A stretch of DNA of 64,000 nt from Rhizobiales bacterium Y(2018) (GTDB lineage Bacteria > Pseudomonadota > Alphaproteobacteria > Rhizobiales > Aestuariivirgaceae). How positions within the stretch are numbered: the stretch's first letter is position 1; each line of letters begins with the position of its first letter. Both the position numbers and the translations under genes were made by a program. Below are positions 300-42,035 of the stretch, one piece after another. The notes below the pieces were generated by a model. The model did not search any database, was not told where the DNA came from, and saw only the letters and a list, made by a program, of their open reading frames with translations. The stretch covers positions 1 to 64,000 of the forward strand of contig SCPD01000009.1 in assembly GCA_005502925.1 (NCBI GenBank), read 5' to 3'.

Positions 300-2339
300 T
301 CACTTCGCGAGTTTCTCATTCGTCTCGGCCAGCCGCACCAGCAGTTCCGACGGCCGCCAGAACCAGGCATCATCCTTGGCCAAGGCTTCGATGCGGCGCA
401 GGACGGCCTTCACGCCGATCTCGTCGGCCAAAAACATCGGGCCGCCGCGCCAGCGCGGAAAGCCGTAGCCATTGACCATCACGACATCGATGTCGCTGGC
501 CCTGAGCGCGATGCCTTCGTCGAGAATGCGGGCTCCCTCATTGATCATGGCGAGCAGGATGCGGTCCATGATCTCATCCTTGCTGAAGGTGCGCGGCGTG
601 ATGTTGCGGCGCCGGCGCTCTTGCGTGATGATCGCCAAGGTCGCCTCATCGGGCACCGGTGTCTTGCCGGCGTAACTGTAATAGCCGCTGCCGGTCTTGC
701 GGCCGAAGCGCCCGCTCTTGCAGATGAGATCGACGATGCGGACATAACGCTCGCGCGGGTCGCGTGTGGGGGCGAGAGCCTTGCGGTTGGCCCACATGAT
801 ATCGAGCCCGGCCATATCCTGCATCTCGAACACGCCCATGGGCAGGCCGAAATCGCGGAAGGCCGCATCGATCTCGGCCGGAGCGGCGCCATCCTCCATC
901 AGATATTCGGCCTGCTTGCGATAGGCCGAGAGAATGCGATTGCCGATGAAGCCGTCGCACACGCCGGCGCGGACCGCGATCTTGCCGAGCCTACGGCCGA
1001 GCGCGAAGCCGGTCGCCACGGTCTCGGATGCGGCGTTGGGCGGCACGACCACTTCGAGCAGCTTCATGATATGGGCGGGCGAGAAAAAATGCAGACCGAT
1101 GACCTGCTGCGGCCGCGCCGTCACATCGGCGATGGCCCCGACATCGAGATAGGAGGTATTGGTGGCGAGGATGGCGTCGGGCTTCGCGGCCTTGTCGAGA
1201 TCGCGGAAGATCGCCTGCTTCACGCCCAGATCCTCGAAGGCGGCCTCGATCACCAGATCGGCGGAAGAGAGATCGGCCATCGTCGCGGTGGTGCGCAATC
1301 CGCCGGCGGCGATCCGGTCGAAGTCGGCTTGTGCGAGCTTGCCGCGCTCGACTGAAGCTTTGAGCAAGCCCAGAGCCCGGTCGCGGGCGAGATCAGCCGA
1401 CGGCTGATCGCGCTCAAGCAAAGTGACGGAGAGGCCGGAGAGCAGAGCCGCGGCGGCGATGCCGGTTCCCATCAGGCCACCACCGATGACGCCCAGTTGT
1501 GCCACCGGTCGCGGCTTCGCGTCGGCCTCGGGAATTTTGGCGATCTCGCGCTCGGCGAAGAAGATGTGGCGCAGTGCGCGTGCCTGCTCGGAATTGCGCA
1601 GCTCAGCGAATACTTCCGCCTCGCGCGCCATGCCCTGCGCGAAGTCGAGATGTGCAGTCTCTTCTAGGACGTCGAAAGCGCGCACCGGGCTTATCTGGCC
1701 ACGCGCTTTCACCTGTTTGCGCAACTCGGCAAAATTCGCAGGCGCGGCGATGAGGTCGCGAACCCGCCTGACCACCGGCTTCGTTGCGAGGAAGGCGCGC
1801 GCCTCGGCGATGAGATCGCCTTCCGCGATCCTGTCGGCGATACCGAGTTGCAAGGCTTCCGCCGCCGCCACGCGACGGCCCGAGGTGATCATGTCGATGG
1901 ACGGGGCCATGCCGATGAGGCGCGGCAGCCGCTGCGTGCCGCCAGCGCCCGGAATGATGCCGAGCGTGACTTCCGGCAGACCGACAAAGGCGTGTCTGTT
2001 CATCACGCGATAGTGGCAGGCGAGAGCAAGCTCGAAACCGCCACCGAGGGCCGTGCCATGAATCGCGGCGACGACGGGAATGGTGAGCGCTTCGAGCGCC
2101 GCGATGACATCGCGCAAGGAGGGCGGTACCGGCGGCTTGCCGAATTCGCGGATATCCGCCCCGGCGACGAAGGTCTTGCCGGCGCAGGCGAGGATGACGC
2201 CGCGCAGCGACGTATCTTGCGTGATCTGCGTGATGGCTTCCGCCAGACCCTGGCGCACGGAATGCGAGGTCGCGTTCACCGGCGGATTGTCGATGGTGAT
2301 GATGGCGATGCCATCTTCGCGGGCAAGCGACACGGTCAT
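300..2339 (-). CDS. FadJ-like bifunctional enoyl-CoA hydratase / 3-hydroxyacyl-CoA dehydrogenase
   Basis: A 679-residue protein with an N-terminal crotonase domain and a C-terminal NAD-dependent 3-hydroxyacyl-CoA dehydrogenase. The crotonase half has HGTALGGGFE near residue 94 and LPEVTLGIIPGAGG near 121, so both catalytic glutamates (about E103 and E123) are kept. The Rossmann motif GGGLMGTG is near residue 286, followed by two 3HCDH C-terminal domains. It should hydrate an enoyl-CoA and oxidise the resulting 3-hydroxyacyl-CoA. It is the last gene of a five-gene minus-strand operon, starting 2 bases after the acyl-CoA dehydrogenase stop. Given the neighbours, it probably serves the beta-oxidation-like end of an aromatic-CoA pathway rather than bulk fatty-acid oxidation; that role is inference. 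Confidence 0.88.
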   Translation of the reverse strand: MTVSLAREDGIAIITIDNPPVNATSHSVRQGLAEAITQITQDTSLRGVILACAGKTFVAGADIREFGKPPVPPSLRDVIAALEALTIPVVAAIHGTALGGGFELALACHYRVMNRHAFVGLPEVTLGIIPGAGGTQRLPRLIGMAPSIDMITSGRRVAAAEALQLGIADRIAEGDLIAEARAFLATKPVVRRVRDLIAAPANFAELRKQVKARGQISPVRAFDVLEETAHLDFAQGMAREAEVFAELRNSEQARALRHIFFAEREIAKIPEADAKPRPVAQLGVIGGGLMGTGIAAAALLSGLSVTLLERDQPSADLARDRALGLLKASVERGKLAQADFDRIAAGGLRTTATMADLSSADLVIEAAFEDLGVKQAIFRDLDKAAKPDAILATNTSYLDVGAIADVTARPQQVIGLHFFSPAHIMKLLEVVVPPNAASETVATGFALGRRLGKIAVRAGVCDGFIGNRILSAYRKQAEYLMEDGAAPAEIDAAFRDFGLPMGVFEMQDMAGLDIMWANRKALAPTRDPRERYVRIVDLICKSGRFGRKTGSGYYSYAGKTPVPDEATLAIITQERRRRNITPRTFSKDEIMDRILLAMINEGARILDEGIALRASDIDVVMVNGYGFPRWRGGPMFLADEIGVKAVLRRIEALAKDDAWFWRPSELLVRLAETNEKLAK

Positions 2340-2341
2340 GA

Positions 2342-3519
2342 TCAGGCTTTCGTGGTGGGAGAGAGCAGCGAGCGCGCGATGATGACCTTTTGCACCGCGC
2401 TCGCCCCTTCATAGATGCGCAAGGCGCGGATCTCGCGATAAAGCTGCTCGGGACGCGTGCCGGATTTGACGCCGAGCCCGCCGAAGAGCTGCACGGCGGT
2501 GTCGATCACCCGCTGCGCCGCCTCGGTCGCGGTGAATTTGGCCATCGCCGCCTCACGGGTGATGCGCTCGGCGCCCTGGTCCTTGGTCCAGGCGGCGCGA
2601 TAGACCATCAGTGCGGAGGCATCGACATCGAGCGCCATGTCGGCGATCTGGCCCTGCACCATCTGGAGATCGGCGAGCACGCCACCCATCAGCCGCCGGC
2701 TCGATACATGGATCAGCGCCTCATCGAGGGCGCGGCGCGCAAAGCCCAGAGCGGCAGCGCCCACCGTCGAGCGGAAGATGTCGAGCACCGACATGGCGAT
2801 CTTGAAGCCCTCGCCGCCCTTGCCGATGCGGTTGCCGATCGGAATGCGGCAATCGTCGAAGCGCAAGCGGGCGAGCGGATGCGGCGAGATCGTCTCGATG
2901 CGCTCGGCGATGCTGAGGCCGGGCGTGTCGGCCTCGATCATGAAGGCGCTGAGGCCCCGCGCTCCCGGCGCCTCGCCGGTACGGCAGAAGACGACATAAC
3001 GATCGGCGATGCCACCATTGGAGATCCAGGTCTTCTCGCCCTCGATGACGACATGCTCATTGCCGTCGGGCCGCGCGGTGCAGGCAAGCGCCGCCACATC
3101 CGAGCCTGCTTCGGGCTCCGACAGAGCGAAGGCCGAGATCGCCTTGCCTTGGGCGATGGGGGGCAGCCATTTGCGCTTCTGCTCTTCGGTGCCGAACAAG
3201 GTGACGGGACCGGTGCCGAGACCCTGCATGGCGAAAGCGAAATCGGCGAGCCCGTCGGCATAGGCCAGGGTCTCGCGGATGAGGCACAAGGAACGCACGT
3301 CGAGTTTTTCGGCGAGTCCGCCGAAAGGCGCCGTCACCGCATGGCGCAGCAGCCCGCTTTCGCCCAAAGCGGCGACGAGCTTGCGGCAGGACTGGTCGGG
3401 GTCGTGATGATCGACGAGACCCGGTACTTCGTTGCGGGCGAAAGCCAGAACCTCAGCCTCGACTTCGCGGTGGCTCTTGTCGAAGAACGGCCAGGCGAGA
3501 AAACTCCTGTCGGTCATGC

Positions 3520-5668: not shown

Positions 5669-5687
5669 GTCTAAAGCGTTTTTCAAG

Positions 5688-6809
5688 TCACGCCGCGGCG
5701 ACCGCGCGATGATCCTGGCGCAGGCCCTTCGCGGCGAGGATAGGCAGGACATTGTCGCGGAAATACGGGAACTCCTCGACATAGTCGACGAAGGACAAGG
5801 TCGTGCCTTTGAAGCCTGCCTCGTGCAGCGCAATGATGCCGTCGGCGACTTGCTCGGGCGTTCCGACCAGCGGGAAGCCGCCATGACCGGCAGCCATGCG
5901 GTCGCGGATCAGCGCCAGGAGATCATGCGGGAAGGACTGCGCATGGGCGAATTGCAGGCGCACCAGATTGTCGACGGCGTCCCAGTCGGCATGGGTGCGG
6001 CCGAAATGCTCGAGATAGTCCTTGGCTTCCTGCTCGCTTGGCCGGCAGACGACATGCGCGAAAGTGAGCACCTCGATGTCGCGTTTGCTGGCGCGGCCCA
6101 TCTCCTTGAGCTGAGCGATCTCGTCCTTCGAGCGGGCCAGATCGATGGCCGGCGTGAACAGGAAATCGGCATTGCGGGTCGCGAAATTGCGGCCTTCACC
6201 CGAACCCGCGGCGTTGATGATCGGCACAGGGCTCAAGGGCTTGGGCTCGCCCAGCACCTGCTTCAATTGGAAGTATGTGCCGTTCCAGTCGAAGCTCTTG
6301 TCCTCGCGCCACAGAGCCTGCACGATGTCGAACCATTCCTGGGCGTAGCCGTAACGCACCTCATGCTTGTCCGGCAGCGTCAGGCCCAGGGCCTCATATT
6401 CGGGCTTGTTCCAGCCTGCCACGATATTGAGGCCGATGCGGCCCCGGCTGATGCGGTCGATGGTGGCGAGCTGCTTGGCTGAGACCACCGGGTGATTGGC
6501 GGCGGTGTGGAGGGTGGCGAAGACCGTGATGTCTTGCGTATGGGCAAGCAGGCCCGCCGCCCAGGTAATGGTCTCCAGCACGTTGTGATGGAAATTCGTC
6601 TCGCCGCCATAACCGATCCAGCGCGCGATCGGCAGCATGAAATCGATGCCGGCCTGATCGAGAAGGCGCGCCAGCTTCAGATTGTTCTCCCAGCTGTTGT
6701 CCCAACGCTCCTCGACCTTGGTGACGGTCATGCCGCTCGAGCAGTTGGACGCGAAAGTGCCGAGCAGGAACTGGTCCTTGGCGAACATGCGGTTGGGAGA
6801 TCGGGCCAT
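5688..6809 (-). CDS. LLM-class flavin-dependent monooxygenase, RutA/SfnG-like
   Basis: A 373-residue luciferase-like (bacterial luciferase/RutA/SfnG) FMN-dependent monooxygenase. Family features are TVFATLHTAANHPVVSAKQ, TIDRISRGRIGLNIVAGWN (flavin-binding strand), KPEYEALG, and a C-terminal GTPEQVADGI. RutA-type relatives use flavin supplied by a separate reductase to insert oxygen and open heterocyclic rings or cleave C-N/C-S bonds. The ATG at 6807-6809 is preferred because GGAGG lies eight bases upstream; a GTG five codons earlier overlaps that ribosome-binding site. It is divergent from a winged-helix regulator and lies between the two halves of a tryptophan/anthranilate locus. No flavin reductase gene is seen nearby. 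The substrate is unknown. Confidence 0.85.
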   Translation of the reverse strand: MARSPNRMFAKDQFLLGTFASNCSSGMTVTKVEERWDNSWENNLKLARLLDQAGIDFMLPIARWIGYGGETNFHHNVLETITWAAGLLAHTQDITVFATLHTAANHPVVSAKQLATIDRISRGRIGLNIVAGWNKPEYEALGLTLPDKHEVRYGYAQEWFDIVQALWREDKSFDWNGTYFQLKQVLGEPKPLSPVPIINAAGSGEGRNFATRNADFLFTPAIDLARSKDEIAQLKEMGRASKRDIEVLTFAHVVCRPSEQEAKDYLEHFGRTHADWDAVDNLVRLQFAHAQSFPHDLLALIRDRMAAGHGGFPLVGTPEQVADGIIALHEAGFKGTTLSFVDYVEEFPYFRDNVLPILAAKGLRQDHRAVAAA

Positions 6810-6838
6810 TCGGGTTTCCTCCACCAGTATGTTTATAG

Positions 6839-6863
6839 TTTATGATAGAAAATCTATGATAAA
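6839..6863. promoter_or_regulatory. 25-bp palindromic operator between monooxygenase and winged-helix regulator
   Basis: An AT-rich inverted repeat with 10 of 12 base pairs matching: left half TTTATGATAGA, right half TCTATGATAAA, around AAA. It lies in the 117-base region between divergent starts at 6809 and 6927 and overlaps the likely monooxygenase promoter. A neighbouring atagttta (6834-6841) recurs in reverse complement at the 7481 promoter. A dimeric winged-helix repressor site, probably for the product of 6927-7484, is the simplest reading. Confidence 0.55.
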
Positions 6864-6926
6864 ATCGATGTGGACGCAACCGGCCGGCTTCGGCATCCTG
6901 AATCCCAACGAGGGAGAGGAGCGGCC

Positions 6927-7484
6927 ATGGCGCACAAGAAGAAGCTCGAGGAGAAAAGCGGCGAGGGGCTCGACCGCCGCTGGCATCTCGCCAACACGCC
7001 CTTCGAGATCGAGGTGACCGAAGCCGAATATTCCCTCATGCGCGCCTATGAAGGTTTCGGCCGCTGGCAGCAGGAATGTCTGGGCTCGGTGATCGACCAT
7101 GCGCTGAGCGGGCCCGAAAATGCGCTGCTCCACATCATCCGCATGCATGACCGGCCGAAGAGCATCAAAGACCTCGCCTGGATGACCAATCGCGACGACA
7201 TTCCCAATATCCAGTACAGCCTGCGCAAGCTGATCAAGGCCGGGCTGGTGCGCCGGTCGGGAAGCGGGCGCGCCGGCGTCACCTATATGGCGAGCGAACG
7301 CGGTGTCGACGTCACCGACCACTATGCCAAGCTACGCAAGACGCTGCTGGTCCAGGCTTTGTCGAATGTTCCCGATTTCGACACGCGGCTCTCGGAGGCG
7401 GCGCGCACCTTCGAGCTGCTCACCGGCATCTATGAGCAGGTGGCGCGCATCGCGGCGACGCATCGCCGCGTGAAGCGCGATTGA
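6927..7484 (+). CDS. Winged-helix (MarR-like) transcriptional regulator
   Basis: A 185-residue protein with a central helix-turn-helix and wing: LLHIIRMHDRPKSIKDLAWM, then NIQYSLRKLIKAGLVRRSGSGRAGVTYMASERG. Flanking helices suggest a MarR-type dimer. The ATG at 6927 has AGGGAGAGGA (6911-6920) as ribosome-binding site; a longer frame to 6870 overlaps the operator region. It is divergent from the LLM monooxygenase and immediately upstream of the aryl-CoA ligase operon, whose promoter starts at its stop codon. It is the best candidate regulator of both divergent units. The inducer is unknown; kynurenine, anthranilate or an anthraniloyl-CoA are inferred candidates. Confidence 0.82.
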   Translation: MAHKKKLEEKSGEGLDRRWHLANTPFEIEVTEAEYSLMRAYEGFGRWQQECLGSVIDHALSGPENALLHIIRMHDRPKSIKDLAWMTNRDDIPNIQYSLRKLIKAGLVRRSGSGRAGVTYMASERGVDVTDHYAKLRKTLLVQALSNVPDFDTRLSEAARTFELLTGIYEQVARIAATHRRVKRD

Positions 7485-7509
7485 CATCGTCCAGAATTAT
7501 TTTAGAATT
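7481..7509 (+). promoter_or_regulatory. Near-consensus promoter of the ligase-kynU-kynA operon
   Basis: TTGACA (7481-7486) and TAGAAT (7504-7509) are separated by exactly 17 bases. The -35 box overlaps the TGA of the upstream regulator gene. The direct repeat agaatta (7493-7499 and 7505-7511) covers the spacer end and -10 box. The following taaactat is the reverse complement of the atagttta seen at 6834, suggesting that one regulator binds both sites. Confidence 0.75.
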
Positions 7510-7559
7510 AAACTATTCACACGGCGCGCGACCGCGCACTACCTCCGTGAGGAGCCGCA

Positions 7560-9182: not shown

Positions 9183-10414
9183 TCACACGCGCAGAGGCCG
9201 AGGCGCTCGATCTCGCCGATCCACTGCGGACGAAGCGCCAGCTTTTCGTCCTGCCGGAAAACACCATCTATCTCGATGGCAATTCGCTGGGGCCGCTGCC
9301 GCGCCATGTGGCGGACAGGCTCTCCGGCGCCGTGGCCCACGAGTGGGGCCAGAGCCTCATCCGCGGCTGGAATACACATGGCTGGTTCGACCTGCCGCGC
9401 GTGTTGGGTGATCGTATCGGCAAGCTCATCGGCGCTGGACCCGGCACGGTGCTGGCGGCGGATTCGACCTCGATCAACCTGGTGAAGGTGCTGACGGCCG
9501 CCTTGGGGCTCAGGCCCGGCCGGCGTGTCATCCTTTCCGACAGCGGCAATTTCCCGAGCGATCTTTATGTCGCGCAAGGCGTCATCAAGGCGCTGGCTGG
9601 TGGCTTCGAGCTGCGTATCGTGGCACCGGAAGAAGTCGAGGCGGCGATCGGCGATGATCTCGCGGTGCTCATGCTGACCGAGGTCGATTACCGCACCGGC
9701 CGGCGTCACGACATGAGGAAGCTCATCGCCAAGGCGCAAGCGAAGGGCGCACTTGCCATCTGGGATCTCTGCCATTCGGCGGGTGCCTTTCCAGTCGATC
9801 TCACCAGCGCCAATAGCGATTTCGCGGTCGGCTGCGGCTATAAATATCTCAATGGCGGACCGGGCGCGCCGGCCTTCGTCTATGTGCGGTCCGATCTCCA
9901 GGACAAGGTCGTGCCGTCGCTGTCGGGCTGGATGGGTCATGAAGCGCCTTTCGCCTTCGATCTCGATTACCGGCCCGCGCAGGGTATCGACCGTTTGCGC
10001 GCCGGGACGCCGGGCGTCCTGTCGATGATCGCCCTCGATTCCGCCCTTGATGTCTGGGACGGCGTCGATCTCACTGTGCTGCGCGAAAAATCGGTGCGGC
10101 TCGCCGAGCTCTTCATCTCGGAAGTCGAGGGACGCTGCGGAGCTTTCGGCCTCAAGCTTGCGAGCCCGCGCGATGCGGCGCAACGCGGCAGCCAGGTGTC
10201 GTTCCATTGCGACGACGGCTATGCGGTGATGCAAGCCCTCATCGCCCAAGGCGTCATCGGCGACTTCCGCGCCCCCGACATCATCCGCTTCGGCCTGACG
10301 CCGCTTTATATCGGCTTCACCGATATCTGGGATGCCGCGCGCATCCTCGAGCGGGTGATGGCCGAGCGTTTGTGGGACCAGCCCCAATTCAAGAAACGGG
10401 CCGCCGTCACATGA
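9179..10414 (+). CDS. kynU: Kynureninase
   Basis: A 411-residue PLP-dependent fold-I hydrolase that cleaves L-kynurenine to anthranilate and alanine. Family features are [19 protein letters not shown] at the N-terminus, the PLP-phosphate region [23 protein letters not shown], and the lysine motif [12 protein letters not shown]. Length fits bacterial KynU. The ATG overlaps the ligase TGA and the TGA overlaps the kynA ATG, coupling ligase, kynU and kynA. No kynurenine formamidase (kynB) is found in the window, so that step must be encoded elsewhere. Confidence 0.95.
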
Positions 10415-11250
10415 GCACCAAGCCCTTCGATCCGAAGAAGGATGGAGCCGAGACGGATTTCACCAGCCGCATGTCCTATGGCGATTATCTGCAGCTCGAC
10501 AAGATACTGACCGCACAGGCGCCGCATTCCGTCGCGCATGACGAGATGCTGTTCATCATCCAGCATCAGACGAGCGAATTGTGGATGAAGCTCGCCATCC
10601 ATGAACTGAGCGCCGCGACGCGCGCCATCGCCAGCGACGATCTGCAGCCCGCCTTCAAGATGCTGACGCGGGTGGCGCGCATCATGGAGCAGCTCAATTC
10701 GGCCTGGGACGTGCTGCGCACCATGACGCCCAGCGAATACACGCTGTTCCGCGAAAGTCTCGGCCAGTCCTCAGGGCTGCAATCCTTTCAATATCGCGCC
10801 ATCGAATTTCTGGCCGGCAACAAGAATGCCGCGATGCTGGCGCCGCATGGGCACAAGCATGATCTTCATGATTGGCTCGACGGCATCCGCCACAAGCCCA
10901 GCCTCTATGACGAGGCGATCCGGATCCTCGATCGGCGCGGCTTCGCCATCGATCGGGCGGTGCTCGACCGCGACGTGGCCGAGCCCTATCAGGCTCAGGA
11001 GAGCGTCAAGGCAGCCTGGGCGGTCGTCTATCGCGACCCGGCGCATCATTGGGAACTCTATGAGCTCGCCGAGAAGCTCGTCGACTTCGAGGACTATTTC
11101 CGCCGCTGGCGCTTCAATCATGTGACGACGGTCGAGCGTGTGATCGGCTTCAAGCGCGGCACCGGCGGCACGTCGGGCGTCGCTTATCTGCGCCGCATGC
11201 TGGAAATCGTGCTGTTTCCGGAATTATGGGACGTGCGGACGGAGCTTTAG
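10411..11250 (+). CDS. kynA: Tryptophan 2,3-dioxygenase
   Basis: A 279-residue heme dioxygenase opening the indole ring of L-tryptophan to N-formylkynurenine. Diagnostic stretches are [30 protein letters not shown] (distal heme side and substrate carboxylate) and [19 protein letters not shown] (proximal heme histidine), then GTGGTSG near the end. The ATG at 10411 overlaps the kynU stop; the frame extends upstream inside kynU but the overlap start fits family length. The last 50 codons (from 11098) are repeated 1.16 kb downstream at 12260-12412 with mainly synonymous differences, suggesting a recombination event at this gene's 3' end. Confidence 0.95.
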
Positions 11251-11322
11251 GGGTGTCCCAAATAGCTTGACCTTGCTCAGCCATTCCTGCCTGAATGCTC
11301 AGAAAAATTGGATGGCTGAAAC

Positions 11323-12189
11323 ATGGACTGGTATTGCGCCCACATCATCGTGGCGACCCGCCTTTTTGAAACTGAACAAGATATGGGACCGGTCGAGGAG
11401 CGGCTGGTCCGGATCGAAGCGGAGGATATCCCCGCGGCGCGACTGGCGGCTGTCGCCATTGGCCGGGCGACCGAGACGGCCGGCCCCAAGGAATTTGTAT
11501 GGAAGGGCCAGCGCGCGCGGTTGGAATTCATGGGTGTCCGCGAAATCCGAAAAATTTCCGATGGGCCACCACGCGGTACGGCAGAGGTTCTGCCGAGGCA
11601 CGGAACGGAGTTGACATGCAGCATTTTTGAAGTGCCCGATTACGATACGGCGAGGCATTTGGCGCTCGGCGAGTCCGTCGCCGTGACCTATGCAAGCTCC
11701 CCCGCCTATGCCGTCGACCTGAATGAAGACCCTTTGGAACGCGCCGAGCGGTACAGCAAGCGAATGGAGTCTGAGGGCCCGCTCGTATCCGTGGCACTCT
11801 TGATATATGGCGCGAACCTCGATCCCGATCAGATCAGCCAAATTCTGCGCACCAAGCCTACGCGTGCGCATCGCAAGAATGACAGGCATGTAAGCTCCAC
11901 TGGCCAGATCGTGATCCGAAAGACCGGCCTGTGGAAGCTTGGCGTGAGAATCGACTCACCTGAGGCCGATGACAGTCTGCGTGTGCTGGCTGAACATCTG
12001 GAGCCGCTTTTGAGGGCGCTGAAAGAGCAAGGCTTGGCGCTCGACAAGCTTCCGAATGTCGAGGAAGCCTTTGTGGACATTTTTCGGGTGGAAACGCGCA
12101 TGTGGGAGCAGGAGTTCATGCTCTCCCCGGAAAACACGCGTCTGCTGGCAGAGCTTCGGGTGCCGGTAAAAGTCACCGTAGCGTATTAG
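11323..12189 (+). CDS. DUF4288-DUF4279 two-domain protein of unknown function
   Basis: A 288-residue protein. The N-terminal 100 residues ([20 protein letters not shown], then [12 protein letters not shown] and AIGRATE) look like DUF4288. The C-terminal half from about 155 ([19 protein letters not shown], then [10 protein letters not shown], then TGLWKLGV) looks like DUF4279. Both are small uncharacterised families, usually separate proteins. There is no signal peptide or membrane segment. The gene is less GC-rich by eye than its neighbours, lies alone between kynA and a displaced second kynA 3' end, and has no function related to tryptophan catabolism. It looks like recently inserted cargo. 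Domain names are from memory of family patterns. Confidence 0.75.
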
Positions 12190-12259
12190 CGGAAGGTGCG
12201 GGAAGTTCATCAAAGGTGTTCTTGTTCCCATCGTCAGGCTTACGCCCAGCAAGCGCGCC

Positions 12260-12412
12260 TTCCGCCGCTGGCGTTTCAATCATGTGACGACGGTCGAGCG
12301 CGTCATCGGCTTCAAGCGCGGCACCGGTGGCACATCCGGCGTCGCTTATCTGCGCCGCATGCTGGAAGTGGTGCTGTTCCCCGAATTGTGGGACGTGCGG
12401 ACGGAGCTTTGA
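12260..12412 (+). pseudogene. Displaced second copy of the kynA 3' end
   Basis: A 153-base segment aligned without gaps to 11098-11250 (kynA residues 230-279 plus stop). It differs in 11 codons: nine silent, one Ile-to-Val, and the stop TAG versus TGA. It begins mid-gene at TTCCGCCGCTGG with no upstream kynA sequence and no start codon. The silent-dominated differences show that the sequence evolved as functional kynA before being cut off. It carries the proximal heme histidine region. It is followed within eight bases by palindromic repeat copy B. Confidence 0.92.
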
Positions 12413-12419
12413 GTTTTCC

Positions 12420-12600
12420 CTTCTCCCGCTTGCGGGAGAAGGTGCCCGATAGGGCGGATGAGGGTGTCGGTTCAGCTCGCGGCGGCTCTTCAAGCGAAGT
12501 GATGAAGCTTCAAGACTTCCCATACTTGATCGTTGCGGAGAGGCTGAGAGAACACCCTCATCCGGCCTTCGGCCACCTTCCCGCGCAGGCGGGAGAAGGG
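12420..12600. repeat. Palindromic intergenic repeat, copy B
   Basis: Same architecture as copy A but in the opposite orientation: left hairpin cttctcccgc-ttgcgggagaag with gccc-gatagggc and gatgagggtg, right arm caccctcatccggcc and a degenerate ccttcccgcgcaggcgggag. The interior shares gaagcttcaa and gagaggctgagagaac with copies C and D. It sits directly after the kynA 3' fragment, probably the original downstream neighbour of kynA. The rest of 12601-12829 before the TetR gene holds only its promoter region. Confidence 0.85.
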
Positions 12601-12766
12601 GAATTCGGGGAAGGCCCTAGCCGGGGCGAACGCCGCCCAAGAGCATGAGCCATCACGGTTTTTTGGCTTTTCGGCACCCGCGTAATTCTAGCGTAATATA
12701 CTGAAACAATTATGCTTTTTACTCCCTGGCCGGGAGACATTATCTGTTCCGGCGCAAGGGGAGCCC

Positions 12767-12807
12767 TTGACGTCGAGCCTGTCAATTACTAGATCGACTG
12801 ATCGGTT
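12767..12807 (+). promoter_or_regulatory. Probable promoter/operator of the tetR-efflux operon
   Basis: TTGACG (12767-12772) is followed after 17 bases by TAGATC (12790-12795), a weak -10. Overlapping it is gatcgactgatcggtta (12792-12808), which resembles the alternating gactgatcggt half-sites bound by TetR-family repressors of efflux operons. The TetR ATG at 12830 follows. The exact promoter is uncertain; the operator-like sequence is the better-supported part. Confidence 0.4.
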
Positions 12808-12829
12808 AAATATTTTGGACTCTCGAACC

Positions 12830-13435
12830 ATGCGGAAAGTCGACCCGGAAAAATACGAAGCCAAGCGCCGCCAGATTCTCGATGCGGCGGTCGTCTGCTT
12901 TGCGCGCAGCGGCTTCCATAAGACGTCGACAGCGGAAATCTGCGTCGAGGCCGGCATGAGCCCGGGCAACCTGTTCCATTATTTCAAGAACAAGAACGCC
13001 ATCATCGAAGCCATCGTCGATGAAGACCGCCGCCAGATCTCGGAATGGTATCAGAAGGCGAACCAGGCGGAGGATCTGTTCGAGGAGCTGTTCAAGCTCA
13101 TGCAGCACAATCTCGAGCTGATCGCCGAGCCGATCTACCGCAAGATCGGCATCGAAATCTTCGCCGAGGCGATGCGCAATCCGTCCGTCGGCCATCTCGT
13201 TGCGCGCAACGACGCGGAGCAGATCTCAGCTCTCACCGGCATCCTCAAGAAGGCCGCCGCCAAAGGCCAGATCGACGCCTCGCTCGACATCGCCAAGCTC
13301 GCCACCTGGATCGCGGCACTGGGCGACGGTGCCTTCGGGCGCGCGGCGCTCGATCCCTATTTCGACCCGACCGACCAGAGCGGCATGCTGCGCGAAATCC
13401 TGACCCGCATCCTCAAGCCCAAGGCCGAACGGTGA
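12830..13435 (+). CDS. TetR-family transcriptional regulator
   Basis: A 201-residue one-domain-HTH repressor: RRQILDAAVVCFARSGFHKTS followed by AEICVEAGMSPGNLFHYFKNK is the TetR DNA-binding domain, with a divergent ligand-binding C-terminus. The ATG at 12830 (MRKVDPEKYE) is preferred over the open frame to 12767 because the upstream part overlaps the promoter/operator. It is separated by four bases from the MFS gene and heads an efflux operon that it most likely represses in response to a toxic substrate. Confidence 0.88.
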   Translation: MRKVDPEKYEAKRRQILDAAVVCFARSGFHKTSTAEICVEAGMSPGNLFHYFKNKNAIIEAIVDEDRRQISEWYQKANQAEDLFEELFKLMQHNLELIAEPIYRKIGIEIFAEAMRNPSVGHLVARNDAEQISALTGILKKAAAKGQIDASLDIAKLATWIAALGDGAFGRAALDPYFDPTDQSGMLREILTRILKPKAER

Positions 13436-13439
13436 GACC

Positions 13440-14699
13440 ATGCACGCGTCCTCCGCCACCCGATTGAAACGGCAGCTGCCGCTCTACGGACTGTTCGCAT
13501 CCGGCTCGCTGGCCCTGCTCGGCAATGCCATCGCTTCGGTGGCGCTGCCGTGGTTCGTCCTGTCGCTGACCAGGAGCCCGCTATGGACCGGCGTCGCCGC
13601 GGCGGCCGGACTTGTGCCCTTGATCCTCGGCGCCTTTCTCGGCGGCAGCCTGATCGACCGTCATGGCGCACGCACCATCGCCATCGTCGCGAGCGTTGTC
13701 AGCGCCGCCGCCGTCGCCGCGGTGCCGGCGCTGCATCATACCGGCTTGCTCAGCATCGGGCTCCTCGTCGCGCTGATCGCCATCGGCGCCATCTTCGACG
13801 GGCCCGGCATGACGGCCGAGGAAAGCCGCATGCCGGAACTCGCACGCCTCGCCCGCTTCAAGCTCGAAAAGGTGACCTCGATCGACAGCCTGATCGAAGG
13901 CCTGGCGACGCTCATCGGTCCGGCCGTCGCCGGTCTCGCCATCGCATTTGTCGGCATGCAGAACACGCTGTGGCTCACCGCCCTCTGCTCGCTCATCGCC
14001 GCCTGCTTCATCGCCGCGTCGCTGCCGCGCGAACGTCCGCATCGCATCGCGCAGCGCGCGCAAGCGCCGCAAGACACGCTTGCCGGATTGAAGCTGCTGC
14101 TCGCCGATCCGCTGCTGCGGCCGCTCCTGCTGTTCGCCGCCGCCTTCGTCGCCGTGGCTGCTTCGCTCGGCACGGTGGTGATGCCGGCTTTCTTCTTGCT
14201 GAGCGGACGCGAAGCGCTCGATCTCGGCCTGTTCCTTTCGATCCTCGGTGGCGCCACCATGGTCGGCACCGTGGCTTTCGCTCTGTGGGGCGAACATTTC
14301 AGCCAGCGCTGGCTATTCCTCTCCGGCTGCGCCGCCCAGGCGCTGGCATTCCTGGTATTGGCCTTTCACACATCGCCCGTGGTCCTGTGGGGCGCCGCGG
14401 CGCTCGCCGGTTTGGCCGGCGGTCCGCTCGGCCCGATCGCCAATGCGGCGCTGTACCGACGCATTCCCCTCGCGCTGCGCGGACGCGCCTTGGGTGCTGC
14501 GACCTCGCTGGTGCTCGTCGCCACGCCCGTCGCCGTGATCATCGCCGGCGCCGCGGTGGAACTCACCGATGCCCGCGTCGTGCTGTGGGCCTCGGCGATC
14601 CTGCTCGGCGCCTTCGTTTTCGTCGCCTCGCTGCTGCCGGGCCTCTATGAACTCGACCGTTCGGACAAGGCTGCCGCCGGCGCCATGTCTCAAATTTGA
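13440..14699 (+). CDS. MFS transporter, drug-efflux type
   Basis: A 419-residue membrane protein with about twelve hydrophobic segments and the MFS motif-A-like loop GGSLIDRHGARTIA after helix 2. The N-terminus LYGLFASGSLALLGNAIASVALPWFV is typical of EntS/MFS_3-type (DHA3) exporters. It sits between a TetR repressor and an RND adaptor/permease pair on the same strand with short gaps. This combination suggests an operon exporting one class of compound by two routes. The substrate is unknown. Confidence 0.88.
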   Translation: MHASSATRLKRQLPLYGLFASGSLALLGNAIASVALPWFVLSLTRSPLWTGVAAAAGLVPLILGAFLGGSLIDRHGARTIAIVASVVSAAAVAAVPALHHTGLLSIGLLVALIAIGAIFDGPGMTAEESRMPELARLARFKLEKVTSIDSLIEGLATLIGPAVAGLAIAFVGMQNTLWLTALCSLIAACFIAASLPRERPHRIAQRAQAPQDTLAGLKLLLADPLLRPLLLFAAAFVAVAASLGTVVMPAFFLLSGREALDLGLFLSILGGATMVGTVAFALWGEHFSQRWLFLSGCAAQALAFLVLAFHTSPVVLWGAAALAGLAGGPLGPIANAALYRRIPLALRGRALGAATSLVLVATPVAVIIAGAAVELTDARVVLWASAILLGAFVFVASLLPGLYELDRSDKAAAGAMSQI

Positions 14700-14728
14700 C
14701 ACAGGACGCTCCTAGGAGCGCACATATC

Positions 14729-15934
14729 ATGACGACCGATCTGAACAAAGCTGCGAACACGTCGAAGCCGAAACGGCGCTGGGGCATGATCCTGGTGAGC
14801 GTGTTGCTGGCGTTCCTCCTGATCGGCGGCGCCCTGGTCCTGCTCGACAGTCTCGAACCCGAAGCTTCGCCCGCCAGCACGAACTCCGCGATTGAGTTAC
14901 CGCGCGTCACCACCATGCCGCTCGAAGAGCGCCAGATGGAGCGCAGCCTGGCGATCACCGGCACGCTGATGCCGCGCGACGAAATCTTCATCGGCACAGC
15001 ACTTCAGGACCAGCGTATCCGTGAAGTGCTGGTGGAGGAGGGCGATCAGGTCGTTCAGGGCCAGGTGCTGATCCGGCTCGAGACCGACATTCTCACGACC
15101 AAGCTCAACGACGCCGACAGCCGGGTGGCGCGCGCCATCTCGGCCGTCGCCGAGAAAGAGGCGCAGCGCGCCGAAGCGGAAGCGAGCTTCCGCCGCACCG
15201 AGAAACTGCGCGAGACGGGCGTCGCCAATATCCAGACCTATGACGAACGCCGCGCCGCTTTCCTCGCCGCCGATCACGCGCTGAAGGCGCTCAAGGCCGA
15301 GCTCACCCAGGCGGAAGCGCAAGTGGCGGAAGCGAAGCTGCAGCTCGAGCGCGCCGAGATCAAGGCGCCGGAAGCGGGCCTCATTTCCGAACGCCGGGCA
15401 CAGATCGGCGCCATGCCGGGGACCGATCCGCTGCTCAAGCTCATCCGCAATGGCGATATCGAGCTCGCGGCCGACATGCCCGAGGCCGATCTGCCGCTGG
15501 TCAAGCCCGGCCAGTTCGTGGCGGTCCGGTTCACCGGCATCGATCATGTCTTCGAAGGCGAAGTGCGCATCGTCGCCCCCAAGGTCGATCCGCGCACCAG
15601 GCTCGGCACCGTCAAGGTGATGCTGCCGAAAGACCCGGTCGTCCGTCCCGGCATCTTCGCCAGAGGCACCTTGCTCCTCGAGCGTCGTACTGTCGTTGCG
15701 GTCGCCGACACGGCCGTGCTCTTCGAGGAGCCCGGTAACAAGCCCTATGTCTATGTGGTCAATGACGAGCAGCGGGTGATGCGCCGCTTCGTCGAGCCGG
15801 GTATGCGGCGTGACGGCTATGTCGAGATCCGCTCCGGCCTCGGCCCGCAGGAGCGCGTGGTGCGCAGCGCCTCCGCCTTCCTCCAGGAAGGTGACAAGAT
15901 CCTGCCCGTCACGGAGACCGGTTCGCTCAAATGA
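14729..15934 (+). CDS. RND efflux periplasmic adaptor (HlyD/AcrA-type)
   Basis: A 401-residue membrane-fusion protein. It has an N-terminal transmembrane anchor (WGMILVSVLLAFLLIGGALVLL), a lipoyl-like half (VLVEEGDQVVQGQVLIRLE), an alpha-helical hairpin rich in Ala/Glu (about 125-205), and the second lipoyl half IKAPEAGLISERRAQIG. The ATG at 14729 is preceded by TAGGAG; an in-frame TTG at 14696 overlaps the MFS stop and is less likely. The stop overlaps the RND permease ATG. It links the inner-membrane pump to an outer-membrane channel that is not encoded here. Confidence 0.92.
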   Translation: MTTDLNKAANTSKPKRRWGMILVSVLLAFLLIGGALVLLDSLEPEASPASTNSAIELPRVTTMPLEERQMERSLAITGTLMPRDEIFIGTALQDQRIREVLVEEGDQVVQGQVLIRLETDILTTKLNDADSRVARAISAVAEKEAQRAEAEASFRRTEKLRETGVANIQTYDERRAAFLAADHALKALKAELTQAEAQVAEAKLQLERAEIKAPEAGLISERRAQIGAMPGTDPLLKLIRNGDIELAADMPEADLPLVKPGQFVAVRFTGIDHVFEGEVRIVAPKVDPRTRLGTVKVMLPKDPVVRPGIFARGTLLLERRTVVAVADTAVLFEEPGNKPYVYVVNDEQRVMRRFVEPGMRRDGYVEIRSGLGPQERVVRSASAFLQEGDKILPVTETGSLK

Positions 15935-18900
15935 CGTCGAATATTTCCGCCTGGGCGATCAGGAGGCCGATCCCGACCATCCTGCTCTTCGTCGTGCTCA
16001 CTTTGATGGGCTGGGCGTCCTTCGCCAAATTGCCGATCAATGCCGATCCGAATGTCTCGTTTCCGATCGTCAATGTCACGGTGACGCGTTCGGGCGCGGC
16101 CCCCGCCGAGCTCGAAACCCAGGTCACGCGCAAGGTCGAAAGCGCCGTCGCCGGGCTTGCCGGCGTGCGCCACATCACTTCGACCATCGAAGACGGCGTG
16201 TCGACCACGACGGTCGAGTTCCGTCTCGAGATGGATGTCGACCGCGCCACCAATGACGTGCGCGACGCCGTCGCCAATATCCGCAGCGATTTGCCGGGCG
16301 ATGTCGAGGAGCCGATCGTGGCGCGGCTCGATATCGAAGGCAGCGCCATCCTCTATTATGTCGTCCAGTCGCCGACCATGTCGCTGCGCGATCTCTCCTG
16401 GTTCGTCGAGGACACGATCGGGCGCGAATTGCTGGCGGTGCCCGGCGTGCAGAAATCGCAACGCTTCGGCGGCATCGAACGCGAGATCAAGGTCGAGCTC
16501 GATCCGGCCAAGCTCACCGCCTTCGGCATCACCGCCGATCAGGTGAATACCGAGATCCGCAGCCTCAATGCCAATATGCCGGGCGGCCGCGCCGAGCTCG
16601 CCGGGCGGGAGCAGTCGGTGCGCACGCTGGGCAGCGCGCTCACCGTCGAAGCTTTCGCCGACACCCAGATCCCCCTGCCGGGTGAGCGCTGGGTGAAGCT
16701 CTCGACGCTCGGCACCATTGTCGACGGGGCGGCCGAGGAGCGCAGCTTCGCGCGGTATGACGGCCAGCATGTCGTCGGCTTCTCGGTGTCGCGCGCCAAA
16801 GGCTCGAGCGACACCACAGTCGCCGATGCGGTGGCCAAGAAGCTCGAAGAGATCGGCACGCGTTATCCGACGGTGAAAGTCCATCAGCTCGTCTCGACCG
16901 TCGACTATACGCGCGAAAGTTATGACGCGGCGATGGAAGCGCTGGTCGAAGGCGCCTTCCTCACCGTATTGGTGGTGTTCCTGTTCCTGCGCGACTGGCG
17001 CGCGACGCTCATAGCCGCCCTCGCCATGCCGCTGTCGATGCTGCCGACTTTCGTCGTCATGGACTGGCTGGGCTTCACGCTCAACAGCATCTCGCTCCTG
17101 GCGCTCACGCTGGTCATCGGCATCCTGGTCGATGACGCGATCGTCGAGATCGAGAATATCGACCGCCACATCCACATGGGCAAAAGGCCTTATCTCGCCT
17201 CGATCGAGGCGGCGGATGCGATCGGCCTCGCGGTGGTGGCCACCACCTTCACCATCGTCGCCGTGTTCACGCCGGTGAGCTTCATCGGCGGCATCATCGG
17301 CCAGTATTTCAAGCAGTTCGGCATCACCGTCGCCGTCGCGGTGCTGGCGTCGCTCCTCGTCGCGCGCCTGCTGACGCCGCTGATGGCGGCCTATCTGATG
17401 AAGCCGAAGAAGAAGCCCGAGCATGCCGAAGGCGGTGCGCGGCAATCGCGCCTCGTGGCGGGCTATCTGGGGCTCCTCGGCTGGACGCTCGACCATAAGA
17501 TCACCTCGATCGCCACCGCGGTCGCCATCTTCATCGGCTCGATGGCGCTGACGCAATTCCTGCCGTCGGGCTTCCTGCCGGTGAGCGACAGCAATCTCTC
17601 GACCATCAAATTCGAGCTGGCGCCGGGCGCGCGCCTCGCCGACACCGACAAGGTGGCGCTCGATCTGGTCGAAAAGCTGCGCCAGCGTCCGGAAGTCGCC
17701 CATGTGCTGGCGACGTCGAATGAGATCCGCAAGGCCGATCTCCTCGTGGTGCTGAAGCCGCGCGGCGAGCGCAACATCACCCGCCAGCAATTCGAGGTAG
17801 CGGTCAGGCCGCTCCTGCAGGCCGTTCCGGATATCCGCTTCACCTTCCAGAGCGATGGCGGTGGTGGCGGGCGCAATGTCTCGGTCGTGCTGGCCGGCGA
17901 TGACCCGCAGAAGCTGACCCAGGCGGCGCAGGATCTCGCCGCACAGATGAAGGGCCTCACGCAGATCGCCAATGTCGCCACGACCTTGCCGCTGCCGCAG
18001 CCGGAGCTCCTCATCCGGCCGCGCTTCGACGAGGCGGCGCAGCTCGGCGTCTCGATCGAGGCGATCGGCACCGCCTTGCGCATCGCCACGATCGGCGCCA
18101 CCGATACGGGCTCGGCCAAGTTCAATCTCGGCGACCGGCAAGTGCCGATCCGCGTGGCCTTGATCCGTGAGGCGCGCGCCGATCTCGACGCCATAAGGTC
18201 GCTGCGCGTCACCACGGCGTCCGGCGTCGCGGTGCCGTTGAGCTCGGTCGCCGATATCGGCTTCGGCACCGGCGAGGCGGCGATCGAACGCTTCGACCGC
18301 AAAAGGCGAGTCAATGTCGAGGCCGATCTCAACAATGCGACGATCGGCGACGCGCTTGGCGCGATCGCCCAGCTGCCGGCCATGAAGAACCTGCCCAATG
18401 GCGTGCAGGAGATCAAATATGGCGAAGCCGAATTCATGCAGGAAATGTTCATGAGCTTCGCGCTCGCCATGGCGACCGGCATCATGATGGTGTTCGTCGT
18501 GCTCATCCTGCTGTTCAAGGACTTCCTGCAACCGGTCACCATCCTGATGGCGCTGCCGCTGGCGATCGGCGGCGCCATGATGGGTCTCCTGCTGTATGGC
18601 GCGGCGCTCGATCTCTCCTCGATCATCGGCCTCCTGATGCTGATGGGCATCGTGACCAAGAACTCGATCCTGCTCGTCGATTTCGCCATCGACGGGATGG
18701 AGCAGGGCATGAGCCGGCGCGAGGCGCTGCTCAAGGCCGGCGCCACGCGAGCGCGGCCGATCATCATGACGACCCTCGCCATGGTGGCCGGCATGCTGCC
18801 GGCGGTGCTGGGCCTCGGCGCCGGCGCCTCCTTCCGTGGGCCCATGGCGGTGGCGGTCATCGGCGGCCTCATCACCTCGACGCTCCTGAGCCTCGTCTTC

Positions 18901-19011
18901 GTGCCGGTGGTCTTCGTCTATATGGACATGTTGCGCGGCTGGATCGGCCGTAAACTGTCGCGCCTCACCTCGGTGACGGAAGAGGACCGCAAGGCGGGGG
19001 CGGTGGGGTAG
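15931..19011 (+). CDS. RND efflux permease (HAE1/AcrB superfamily)
   Basis: A 1026-residue inner-membrane proton/drug antiporter. It opens with ISAWAIRRPIPTILLFVVLTLMGW, has the two large periplasmic loops, and the TM4 motif VIGILVDDAIVEIENI with the paired aspartates for proton relay. The second half has GIVTKNSILLVDFA, typical of HAE-RND pumps. The start overlaps the adaptor stop (ATGA). No TolC-like gene follows, so a shared outer-membrane channel is expected. The end of the operon is followed by repeat C. Confidence 0.95.
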   Translation: MTSNISAWAIRRPIPTILLFVVLTLMGWASFAKLPINADPNVSFPIVNVTVTRSGAAPAELETQVTRKVESAVAGLAGVRHITSTIEDGVSTTTVEFRLEMDVDRATNDVRDAVANIRSDLPGDVEEPIVARLDIEGSAILYYVVQSPTMSLRDLSWFVEDTIGRELLAVPGVQKSQRFGGIEREIKVELDPAKLTAFGITADQVNTEIRSLNANMPGGRAELAGREQSVRTLGSALTVEAFADTQIPLPGERWVKLSTLGTIVDGAAEERSFARYDGQHVVGFSVSRAKGSSDTTVADAVAKKLEEIGTRYPTVKVHQLVSTVDYTRESYDAAMEALVEGAFLTVLVVFLFLRDWRATLIAALAMPLSMLPTFVVMDWLGFTLNSISLLALTLVIGILVDDAIVEIENIDRHIHMGKRPYLASIEAADAIGLAVVATTFTIVAVFTPVSFIGGIIGQYFKQFGITVAVAVLASLLVARLLTPLMAAYLMKPKKKPEHAEGGARQSRLVAGYLGLLGWTLDHKITSIATAVAIFIGSMALTQFLPSGFLPVSDSNLSTIKFELAPGARLADTDKVALDLVEKLRQRPEVAHVLATSNEIRKADLLVVLKPRGERNITRQQFEVAVRPLLQAVPDIRFTFQSDGGGGGRNVSVVLAGDDPQKLTQAAQDLAAQMKGLTQIANVATTLPLPQPELLIRPRFDEAAQLGVSIEAIGTALRIATIGATDTGSAKFNLGDRQVPIRVALIREARADLDAIRSLRVTTASGVAVPLSSVADIGFGTGEAAIERFDRKRRVNVEADLNNATIGDALGAIAQLPAMKNLPNGVQEIKYGEAEFMQEMFMSFALAMATGIMMVFVVLILLFKDFLQPVTILMALPLAIGGAMMGLLLYGAALDLSSIIGLLMLMGIVTKNSILLVDFAIDGMEQGMSRREALLKAGATRARPIIMTTLAMVAGMLPAVLGLGAGASFRGPMAVAVIGGLITSTLLSLVFVPVVFVYMDMLRGWIGRKLSRLTSVTEEDRKAGAVG

Positions 19012-19053
19012 GTTATATCTCACCCCGCAGGGTAGTAAGATTCGCACATCTTT

Positions 19054-19381
19054 CTCCTTCCCCCGCCTCGCGGAGGGCTGTCCGGGGAAAGTTGCGGGAT
19101 GTCTGAGAAATCGCGCGGAAAACAGGATTGGAGAGGCGTCTTCTAAAATGAGATTCAGAATTCCCCCTCGACTTCCCCCTTCTCCCGCCTGCGGGAGAAG
19201 GTGCCCGACAGGGCGGATGAGGGTGCTGGTTCAGTTGATGACATCTCTTCAAGATAACAACGAGACGAAGCTTCAACACTGCCCACATTTGCGGTTCTAC
19301 AGAGGCTGAGAGAACACCCTCATCCGGCCTTCGGCCACCTTCTCCCGCAGGCGGGAGAAGGGGAATGCAGGTGAGGCTTGC
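19054..19381. repeat. Long palindromic repeat, copy C (328 bases)
   Basis: Contains the core element (19179-19362) with cttctcccgc-ctgcgggagaag arms. To its left is a 125-base segment that also precedes copy D. Copies C and D align over 328 bases without net gaps and with about fifteen mismatches. Around copy C, agggctgtccggggaaa (19075-19091) and tttccccggacagccct (19394-19410) form an outer inverted repeat, so one palindrome is nested in another. The whole 527-base gap to the FAH-family gene is otherwise empty. Confidence 0.85.
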
Positions 19382-23250: not shown

Positions 23251-23468
23251 GGTGAATTTCCCTGATGGCAAGGCGGGTGGGCATTGCGGTCAGGTTGAAA
23301 TCCATTGCTGCGAATATCCTCGTGACGTTGATGAGCAGGCGTCTATTTAGGAAAGCCGCGCCGTGCGATCAAGCCCCCCATAGGAGGCAGGGCTATCGCA
23401 TATGAGATCGTGTGAAAGCGGAAGAGCATTCCCACGTTTTCCGTTTCGCCTGCATTTCACTCATCCTG

Positions 23469-23796
23469 CTCCTTCCCCCGCTTCGCGCAGGACTGTCCGG
23501 GGAAAATTGCGGGATGTCTGAGAAATCGCACGGAAAACAGGATTGGAGGCGCGTCTTCCAAAATGAGACTCAGAATTCCCCCCCGACTTCCCCCTTCTCC
23601 CGCCTGCGGGAGAAGGTGCCCGACAGGGCGGATGAGGGTGCTGGTTCAGTTGATGACATCTCTTCAAGAAAACAACGAGACGAAGCTTCAACACCGCCCA
23701 CGTTTGCGCTTCCACAGAGGCTGAGAGAACACCCTCATCCGGCCTTCGGCCACCTTCTCCCGCAGGCGGGAGAAGGGGAATGCAGGTGAGGCTTGC
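23469..23796. repeat. Long palindromic repeat, copy D (328 bases)
   Basis: Near-copy of 19054-19381, same length, with about fifteen substitutions. The core with hairpin arms is 23594-23777. Unlike copy C it lacks the right outer arm tttccccggacagccct; sequence after ggcttgc is unrelated. It occupies most of the 731-base divergent gap between the ABC-F and MarC genes, which otherwise shows no open frame of note. Confidence 0.85.
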
Positions 23797-41886: not shown

Positions 41887-41913
41887 AGACGACTTTCACT
41901 CTCACCAATATTT

Positions 41914-41990
41914 CCCCTCTCCCGCTTGCGGGAGAGGGGAACACCCTCATCCGGCCTTCGGCCACCTTCTCCCGCAGGCAGGAGAAGGGG
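41914..41990. repeat. Palindromic repeat, copy F, inside the rha operon
   Basis: Shortened copy: hairpin cccctctcccgcttgcgggagagggg followed directly by caccctcatccggccttcggcc and ccttctcccgcaggcaggagaagg. The interior spacer present in copies A-D is missing. Lying between rhaS and rhaD, it may stabilise the transporter mRNA or partly terminate before the catabolic genes. Confidence 0.85.
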
Positions 41991-42035
41991 AACGGAACGG
42001 GAGAGGGGCTAGATGACAACGAAAGGTTAGTATCC

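Follow-up and report, generated by a model that had tools for sequence, protein, structure and literature searches.

The window, which is the whole stretch of 64,000 nucleotides that was analysed, contains kynA at 10411-11250 (+). The last 50 codons and the stop codon of this gene (11098-11250, end A) are repeated at 12260-12412 (end B), and the insert between the two ends holds one gene with a family match (DUF4288-DUF4279), here called the cargo gene. The genus sample used for comparison comprised five genomes, from G000, which is that of the window, to G004. The features of the locus are as follows.

10411..11097 (+): putative resident 5' part of kynA (tryptophan 2,3-dioxygenase); Pfam Trp_dioxygenase, E 8.6e-73 for 10414-11250; groups with G003 (99/98) and has G003-only states at 11094 and 11097
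11098..11111 (+): 14-bp stretch, the same in A and B; the last G003-only site is 11097 and the first A-type site 11112
11098..11250 (+): end A, putative incoming kynA 3' end (by allele comparison with G001-G003), now closing the full-length kynA frame; stop TAG
11251..11322 (+): putative incoming spacer from the kynA stop to the cargo; in a search with 10414-12412, the matches listed in relatives (at most five candidates scored per genome) lie only in query 1-840, which is kynA
11323..12189 (+): cargo gene, 288 aa, DUF4288 and DUF4279 (open ORF, Pfam)
12190..12259 (+): putative incoming spacer up to the right joint 12259/12260; its last 25 bp occur only here in the five genus genomes
12260..12412 (+): end B, probable displaced resident kynA 3' end, stop TGA, severed from its gene; 2/150 differences from G003 kynA, same TGA, then the same TTTTCCC repeat
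12415..12603 (no strand): interspersed palindromic repeat with inverted arms, marking the empty site; directly 3' of kynA in G003, shortened in G002

The cargo ORF (11323-12189, +) is open over 288 aa. Its immunity-type domain, DUF4279, was found above the Pfam cut-off (E 8e-9), and DUF4288 scored 25.6 bits against a cut-off of 27 (E 1.5e-5) and came just over it, at 27.1 bits, in the genome search. DUF4279 has been linked to the immunity proteins of polymorphic toxin systems (PMC13304343), and a DUF4279 gene is listed next to a Campylobacter restriction-modification locus (PMC4615327). As judged by this domain, the cargo is probably an immunity-like protein. Its assignment to known defence genes or to a named family was rejected, there being no PADLOC or NCBIfam match. 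The insert is neighboured by kynA on one side and by a TetR-like gene (assigned by eye) on the other.

No full-length relative of the cargo was found in 69 family, 385 class and 398 phylum genomes (overlapping samples), and the other matches listed in these samples covered one domain or part of one. The protein had no match in plasmids and phages, and neither the 49 pattern matches in viral contigs nor the 51 in contigs of close-relative genomes included a confirmed relative. The peptide of the kynA end gave 10 pattern matches in viral contigs, none of them a relative, and none was confirmed in phage records. A phage or plasmid origin was rejected on the grounds that the cargo has no match in plasmids or phages and that neither it nor the kynA end has a confirmed relative in viral contigs.

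Ends A and B are identical at 140 of 153 positions without any gap. Eleven codons differ, nine of them silently, one as ATC/GTG (Ile/Val) and one as the stop codon (TAG/TGA), and the initial annotation, which had described a colinear, gap-free recurrence of the kynA end with 11 changed codons, was exact in this. The homology stops on both sides, where a T precedes end A (11097) and a C precedes end B (12259), and no common sequence is evident past the two stop codons. The pair is the longest direct repeat in a 10-kb scan around kynA. In contig C37 (257,402 bases) it is one of five same-strand repeats of at least 60 bp that are at least 75% alike and at most 6 kb apart, and the only one of the five that is both more than 85% alike and spaced by less than 3 kb. 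The repeat is far beyond chance. When the window's own genome was searched with 11098-12412, the locus itself was the only match listed (40 of the 82 candidates scored).

The kynA site is uninterrupted in two close relatives, G003 and G002. In G003, kynA ends in the B allele (151/153 with the stop, that is, two differences in 150 and the same TGA) and runs directly, without any cargo, into the palindromic repeat TTTTCCCTTCTCCCGC, the same repeat that follows copy B in the window. An empty site of exactly this form, in which the 12260-12412 allele is joined straight to the palindromic repeat, had been predicted by the initial annotation. G002 has one kynA end followed by the first part of the palindromic repeat and no insert, and G001 has one kynA end with different flanking DNA; the end is single-copy in all three genomes, and G004 (87% complete) gave no kynA match. 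The window genome has a stretch of 1,162 bp (from 11098-11111 to 12259) that is absent at the same place in G003 and G002 and is bracketed by long direct repeats of its target, one copy of the duplicated end restoring the gene. Both flanks of the insert are colinear with G003 over several kb. Since G003 and G002 lack the insert and G003 carries the B allele, the most natural reading of the 1,162 bp is that they were inserted in the window's lineage, B being the resident end.

It could be objected that two strain haplotypes of the kynA end were joined head to tail in one contig, given an assembly of 37 contigs with an estimated contamination of 2.43%. Such an artefact appears highly improbable, as 9800-13800 contains no run of N, the ORF of the cargo is uninterrupted, and colinearity with G003 extends over both flanks.

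Outside the insert, the window resembles G003 to varying degrees. BLAST identity was 93.7% to the left of the insert and 96.5% to its right, with 98.3% in the short stretch 12,260-12,500. The possibility that an identity jump at 12260 marks a foreign right flank was rejected, as the rise starts near 14,000 and belongs to a separate tract: about 5 kb (~14,000-19,000, RND efflux genes by eye) are 96-100% like G003 per 250-bp step, compared with mostly 90-93% to the left and 87-94% to the right. By its identity profile this tract is probably a recent homologous exchange. A stretch of ~1.8 kb at 5684-7516 (ORF 6870-7484) is absent or much shorter in G003 and G002 and colinear in G001. The palindromic repeat belongs to an interspersed family of ~190 bp, with full or partial members at 89-279, 12415-12603, 19163-19365, 23578-23780 and 41911-41992 of the window, and also at the kynA site of G003. 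A 341-bp direct repeat (19041-19381 and 23456-23796, 94% identical, 4.4 kb apart) exceeds the palindromic repeat inside it.

With regard to end A, its identities were 137/150 to G003, 138/150 to G002 and 140/150 to G001, and B has the G003 state at each of the 11 coding sites that distinguish it from A. Over 153 sites (stop included) A differs from G003 at 15, where its state is common to G001 only at four sites, to G002 only at three, to both at three (one of which, 11136, is also in B) and to no congener at five (one of which, 11184, is also in B). At third positions A differs from G003 at 12 of 50 sites versus 27 of 226 upstream, which is marginal (Fisher p 0.041), and B differs at 2 of 50 (p 0.13 against the same upstream sites), so that the closeness of B to G003 does not significantly exceed that of the rest of kynA. 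Changes unique to the window genome number 10 in ~684 upstream kynA sites, compared with the 11 coding A-B changes in 150 (Fisher p 0.0003; p 0.031 by a looser count of 21 upstream unique changes). Eleven changes in 150 sites are too many for a branch with 10 upstream.

In the 12-row tree analysis, the rest of the window's kynA grouped with G003 (support 99/98), and its union with G001 was rejected (p-AU 0.0005). For the ends themselves (150 sites), the 27-row tree placed B with G003 (96/83) and A with G001 (86/88), and the 12-row tree placed B with G003 (75/79) and left A without a firm place. Neither holding A with B and G003 (p-AU 0.060) nor uniting A and B in one clade (p-AU 0.079) was rejected at 5%, both values being borderline on 150 sites. 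The trees of both ends, which the initial annotation had suggested as a check, point to the same polarity as the empty site as far as the 27-row tree goes (B with G003, A with G001), but weakly, the 12-row tree leaving A open and the p-AU of 0.060 coming from 150 sites. The donor of end A was sought and not found, the best of 93 ends examined (100 loci given) being that of G001 at 140/150.

At one site, 11184, both A and B have T, a state absent from the three congeners; it calls for gene conversion, a common ancestor or homoplasy. The same site would be accounted for by an old tandem duplication of the kynA end in the window lineage, with the cargo inserted between the copies and gradual divergence thereafter, and the A+B clade that was not rejected at 5% (p-AU 0.079) agrees with such a history. 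We nevertheless find it very unlikely, as G001, G002 and G003 have a single kynA end each, all 11 coding changes (nine silent codons, one Ile/Val) would fall on A at about five times the unique-change rate of the rest of the gene, and four A states recur in G001 only.

Comparison of the alleles gives good but not overwhelming support to the view that A was brought in from a congener outside the sample. That A and the cargo came in while B was resident is, in our judgement, very probable. The initial annotation had argued that both ends evolved in working genes, and that one of them arrived with the cargo from a relative, regenerating kynA and displacing the resident end; both views are supported, the incoming end probably being A (11098-11250) and the resident one B (12260-12412).

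The joints of the insert were examined through the same states. Upstream sites 11094 and 11097 have states common only to G003 and the window; 11085 is unique to the window genome and 11091 changed in G003 alone, so both differ between the window and G003. A-type states begin at 11112. For a donor with the G001/G002 states at 11094 and 11097, this would put the left break within 11098-11111; copy B starts, at 12260, with the equivalent of 11098. Taken together, these two positions suggest an insertion at about one point with no resident base lost. The left joint lies within kynA homology and the right joint has no evident homology, the donor being absent from the genomes searched; the last 25 bp of the spacer, which form the right internal end, were found only here in the five genus genomes, that of the window included, at up to three mismatches. 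An attachment site would give such agreement of the break and the B start within 14 bp, and so would a break that was extended on its left side by copying a donor and then joined to its right side. Under a random second joint, the agreement is a coincidence.

The mechanism we propose is donor copying by homologous invasion at kynA with non-homologous closure, and we give the event and this mechanism together an even chance. DNA of an unsampled congener with the cargo just downstream of its kynA would have entered the cell, and a break would have occurred at or near codon ~230 of the resident kynA. The left end of the break may have paired with the donor kynA and copied the last 50 codons, the spacer and the cargo, after which non-homologous joining would have connected the new strand to the right-hand side of this break. 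Such a process would count as homology-facilitated illegitimate recombination or as break repair in which a patch is copied. Since the kynA frame stays intact, the insertion should cost the host gene little, and a cargo that is probably immunity-like would give a reason for its retention.

Copying from a congener is consistent with the empty site of G003 (B allele, 151/153, and the same repeat behind it), with G002 lacking the insert, and with the negative results on an integrase in the insert, on inverted ends (repeat scan) and on a second occupied kynA. Homologous exchange does occur here, as indicated by the tract at ~14,000-19,000 that is 96-100% like G003. The mechanism is also in print (PMC3240628; PMC5361080), and homology-facilitated illegitimate recombination has been proposed for the build-up of orphan immunity genes in Vibrio cholerae T6SS arrays (PMC5361080). 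Several points are less easily accommodated by such copying. The left break and the B start agree within 14 bp, which plain homology-facilitated illegitimate recombination does not need (break repair does), and the placing of the left break assumes a donor without the G003 states at 11094 and 11097, in a region where 11085 and 11091 also differ from G003. Moreover, the donor is absent from the collections searched, A and B both have T at 11184 unlike the three congeners, and the tests are marginal or short of significance (third positions, p 0.041 for A and 0.13 for B; p-AU 0.060 and 0.079).

A less probable but serious alternative is site-specific integration, like that of e14 in icd. An element whose attachment site includes a kynA 3' end would have recombined within 11098-11111 through a recombinase that acted in trans or has since been lost, and the 1.16-kb, one-gene insert would be a remnant or a satellite. 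A homology block that spans from the joint to the stop, the lack of any missing resident base and the break and B start within 14 bp of each other all fit this reading; an element without an integrase does not. The resemblance to 3'-end-targeted integration that the initial annotation had seen holds for the duplicated end and the empty site; the insert contains no integrase, and no other occupied kynA was found. Among 297 genomes of the order, 67 had a kynA-end match (some distant), and only the window genome had an adjacent second copy; one genome, G969, had a second match of 55% identity on another contig. Nor was a second end found at any other kynA gene in 97 locus records (at most 94 distinct loci, three records being larger stretches of loci already counted), in which two weak extra matches of 13-15 residues look like chance. 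These counts (1/67 and 0/97) and the kynA end not being confirmed in viral contigs or phage records speak against site-specific integration. There is no sign of kynA as a hotspot, and integrase action at kynA is unproven. Transposon insertion was rejected, as the repeat scan gave no inverted pair, 20 nt or longer, that links the two ends of 11251-12259, and none was seen by eye.

The loci with DUF4279 or DUF4288 matches were also scanned for repeats (36 locus records at 28 distinct places, some of the matches below the family cut-off). Repeats of at least 100 bp and 85% enclosed the DUF4279/DUF4288 gene at two of the 28 places, including the kynA insert itself; at G003:C7 only a 53-bp, 85% pair was found around such a gene, and in G057 a 135-bp pair lay to one side of it. 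In the control, 813 kb of 80 kynA loci contained three repeats of at least 100 bp, 85-99%, with a spacing of 500-3000. Since a single additional case among 27 is not convincing by itself, any connection of DUF4279 with gene-end insertions is only a lead.

That further case is in G129, a genome from another family of the class, where a DUF4279 gene and a small Pfam-less gene lie between two 176-bp, 92% identical copies of the yifB start (L172, 7168-8390). Six of the seven genomes in the G129 genus sample had a match. Over the stretch examined, a single yifB start is present in G355 (L171), G881 and G882; in G129 (L172), G257 (L169) and G432 (L170), displaced yifB starts end within about two codons of one point (...GGMPAFT/L). 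A complete yifB start follows the insert in G129 and G432, and in G257 the rest of yifB follows without it. In G257 the insert carries genes for a large serine recombinase and for a restriction-modification-like pair, a DNA methylase and a BglII-like enzyme; that of G432 encodes an HD-domain protein, and no integrase was seen in the G129 and G432 inserts. A motif common to these two, just inside the inserts, was sought in the seven genomes and found only at those two places. The region around codons 32-33 of yifB/comM is an insertion hotspot in this other alphaproteobacterial genus. The yifB product has Mg_chelatase Pfam domains, and magnesium chelatase genes are known as serine-recombinase targets of phage WO (PMC9203015).

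By analogy, the yifB insertions suggest that genuine attachment sites at gene ends are open to a DUF4279 gene even when it brings no integrase along. The case for site-specific integration at kynA is strengthened by this separate insertion of DUF4279 into the yifB hotspot, by the three different inserts (G129, G257 and G432) within about two codons of one point and by the complete yifB start behind the cargo in G129 and G432. By the same token, it counts against copying from a congener that another, unrelated genome has DUF4279 flanked by diverged repeats of a gene end, where a serine-recombinase element inserts as well. Against site-specific integration stands the right internal end of the kynA insert, which is unique in the five genus genomes and has no sequence evidently in common with the yifB element ends (by eye).

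We consider it rather unlikely that these cases form one class, namely integrase-less elements of 1-2 kb that consist of the end of a housekeeping gene and one or two genes, immunity- or defence-like ones among them, and that would be moved by recombinases in trans and insert at gene ends without breaking the gene. Its members would be the kynA insert (3' end) and the yifB inserts of G129 and G432 (5' end). The kynA insert is in any event a clean, recent and polarised example of gene entry into a core metabolic operon, with the resident end hardly changed, the empty site known and the host frame complete. Should such duplications of gene ends prove recurrent around immunity-like genes, they could offer a way to follow how these genes spread without visible mobile machinery.

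The kynA insert is an end-regenerating insertion of a known kind, for which prophage e14 in icd, long target duplication in Helicobacter and homology-facilitated illegitimate recombination provide precedents. Prophage e14 restores the 3' end of icd, leaves the resident end behind and carries its own integrase. The initial annotation had held that a protein-coding target sets the kynA case apart; that view is not supported, as e14 of E. coli K-12 also lies within a coding gene, icd, with element and host likewise having different versions of the gene end (PMC2973815). The prophage is 15.4 kb long (PMC2973815), whereas the kynA insert is 1.16 kb with one gene and no integrase, and has been seen once. 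The serine recombinase of prophage WO (sr1WO) in a magnesium chelatase gene likewise has its target inside a coding gene, and this parallel concerns yifB, that is, the second DUF4279 insertion only, not kynA (PMC9203015). In Helicobacter pylori (PMC1643837), gene insertions with a long duplicated target were seen by comparison with a related genome, as here; those cases are often linked to restriction-modification genes, whereas at kynA the gene is of the DUF4288-DUF4279 type and the repeat finds its match in another lineage of the genus. Finally, the T6SS arrays of Vibrio cholerae, as described in PMC5361080, are anchored in the upstream part of effector-immunity modules, whereas the anchor at kynA would be a metabolic gene with no toxin gene evident; in common with the event proposed at kynA, they have a conserved upstream anchor, a non-homologous other end, a displaced 3' end moved downstream and an accumulation of immunity genes.
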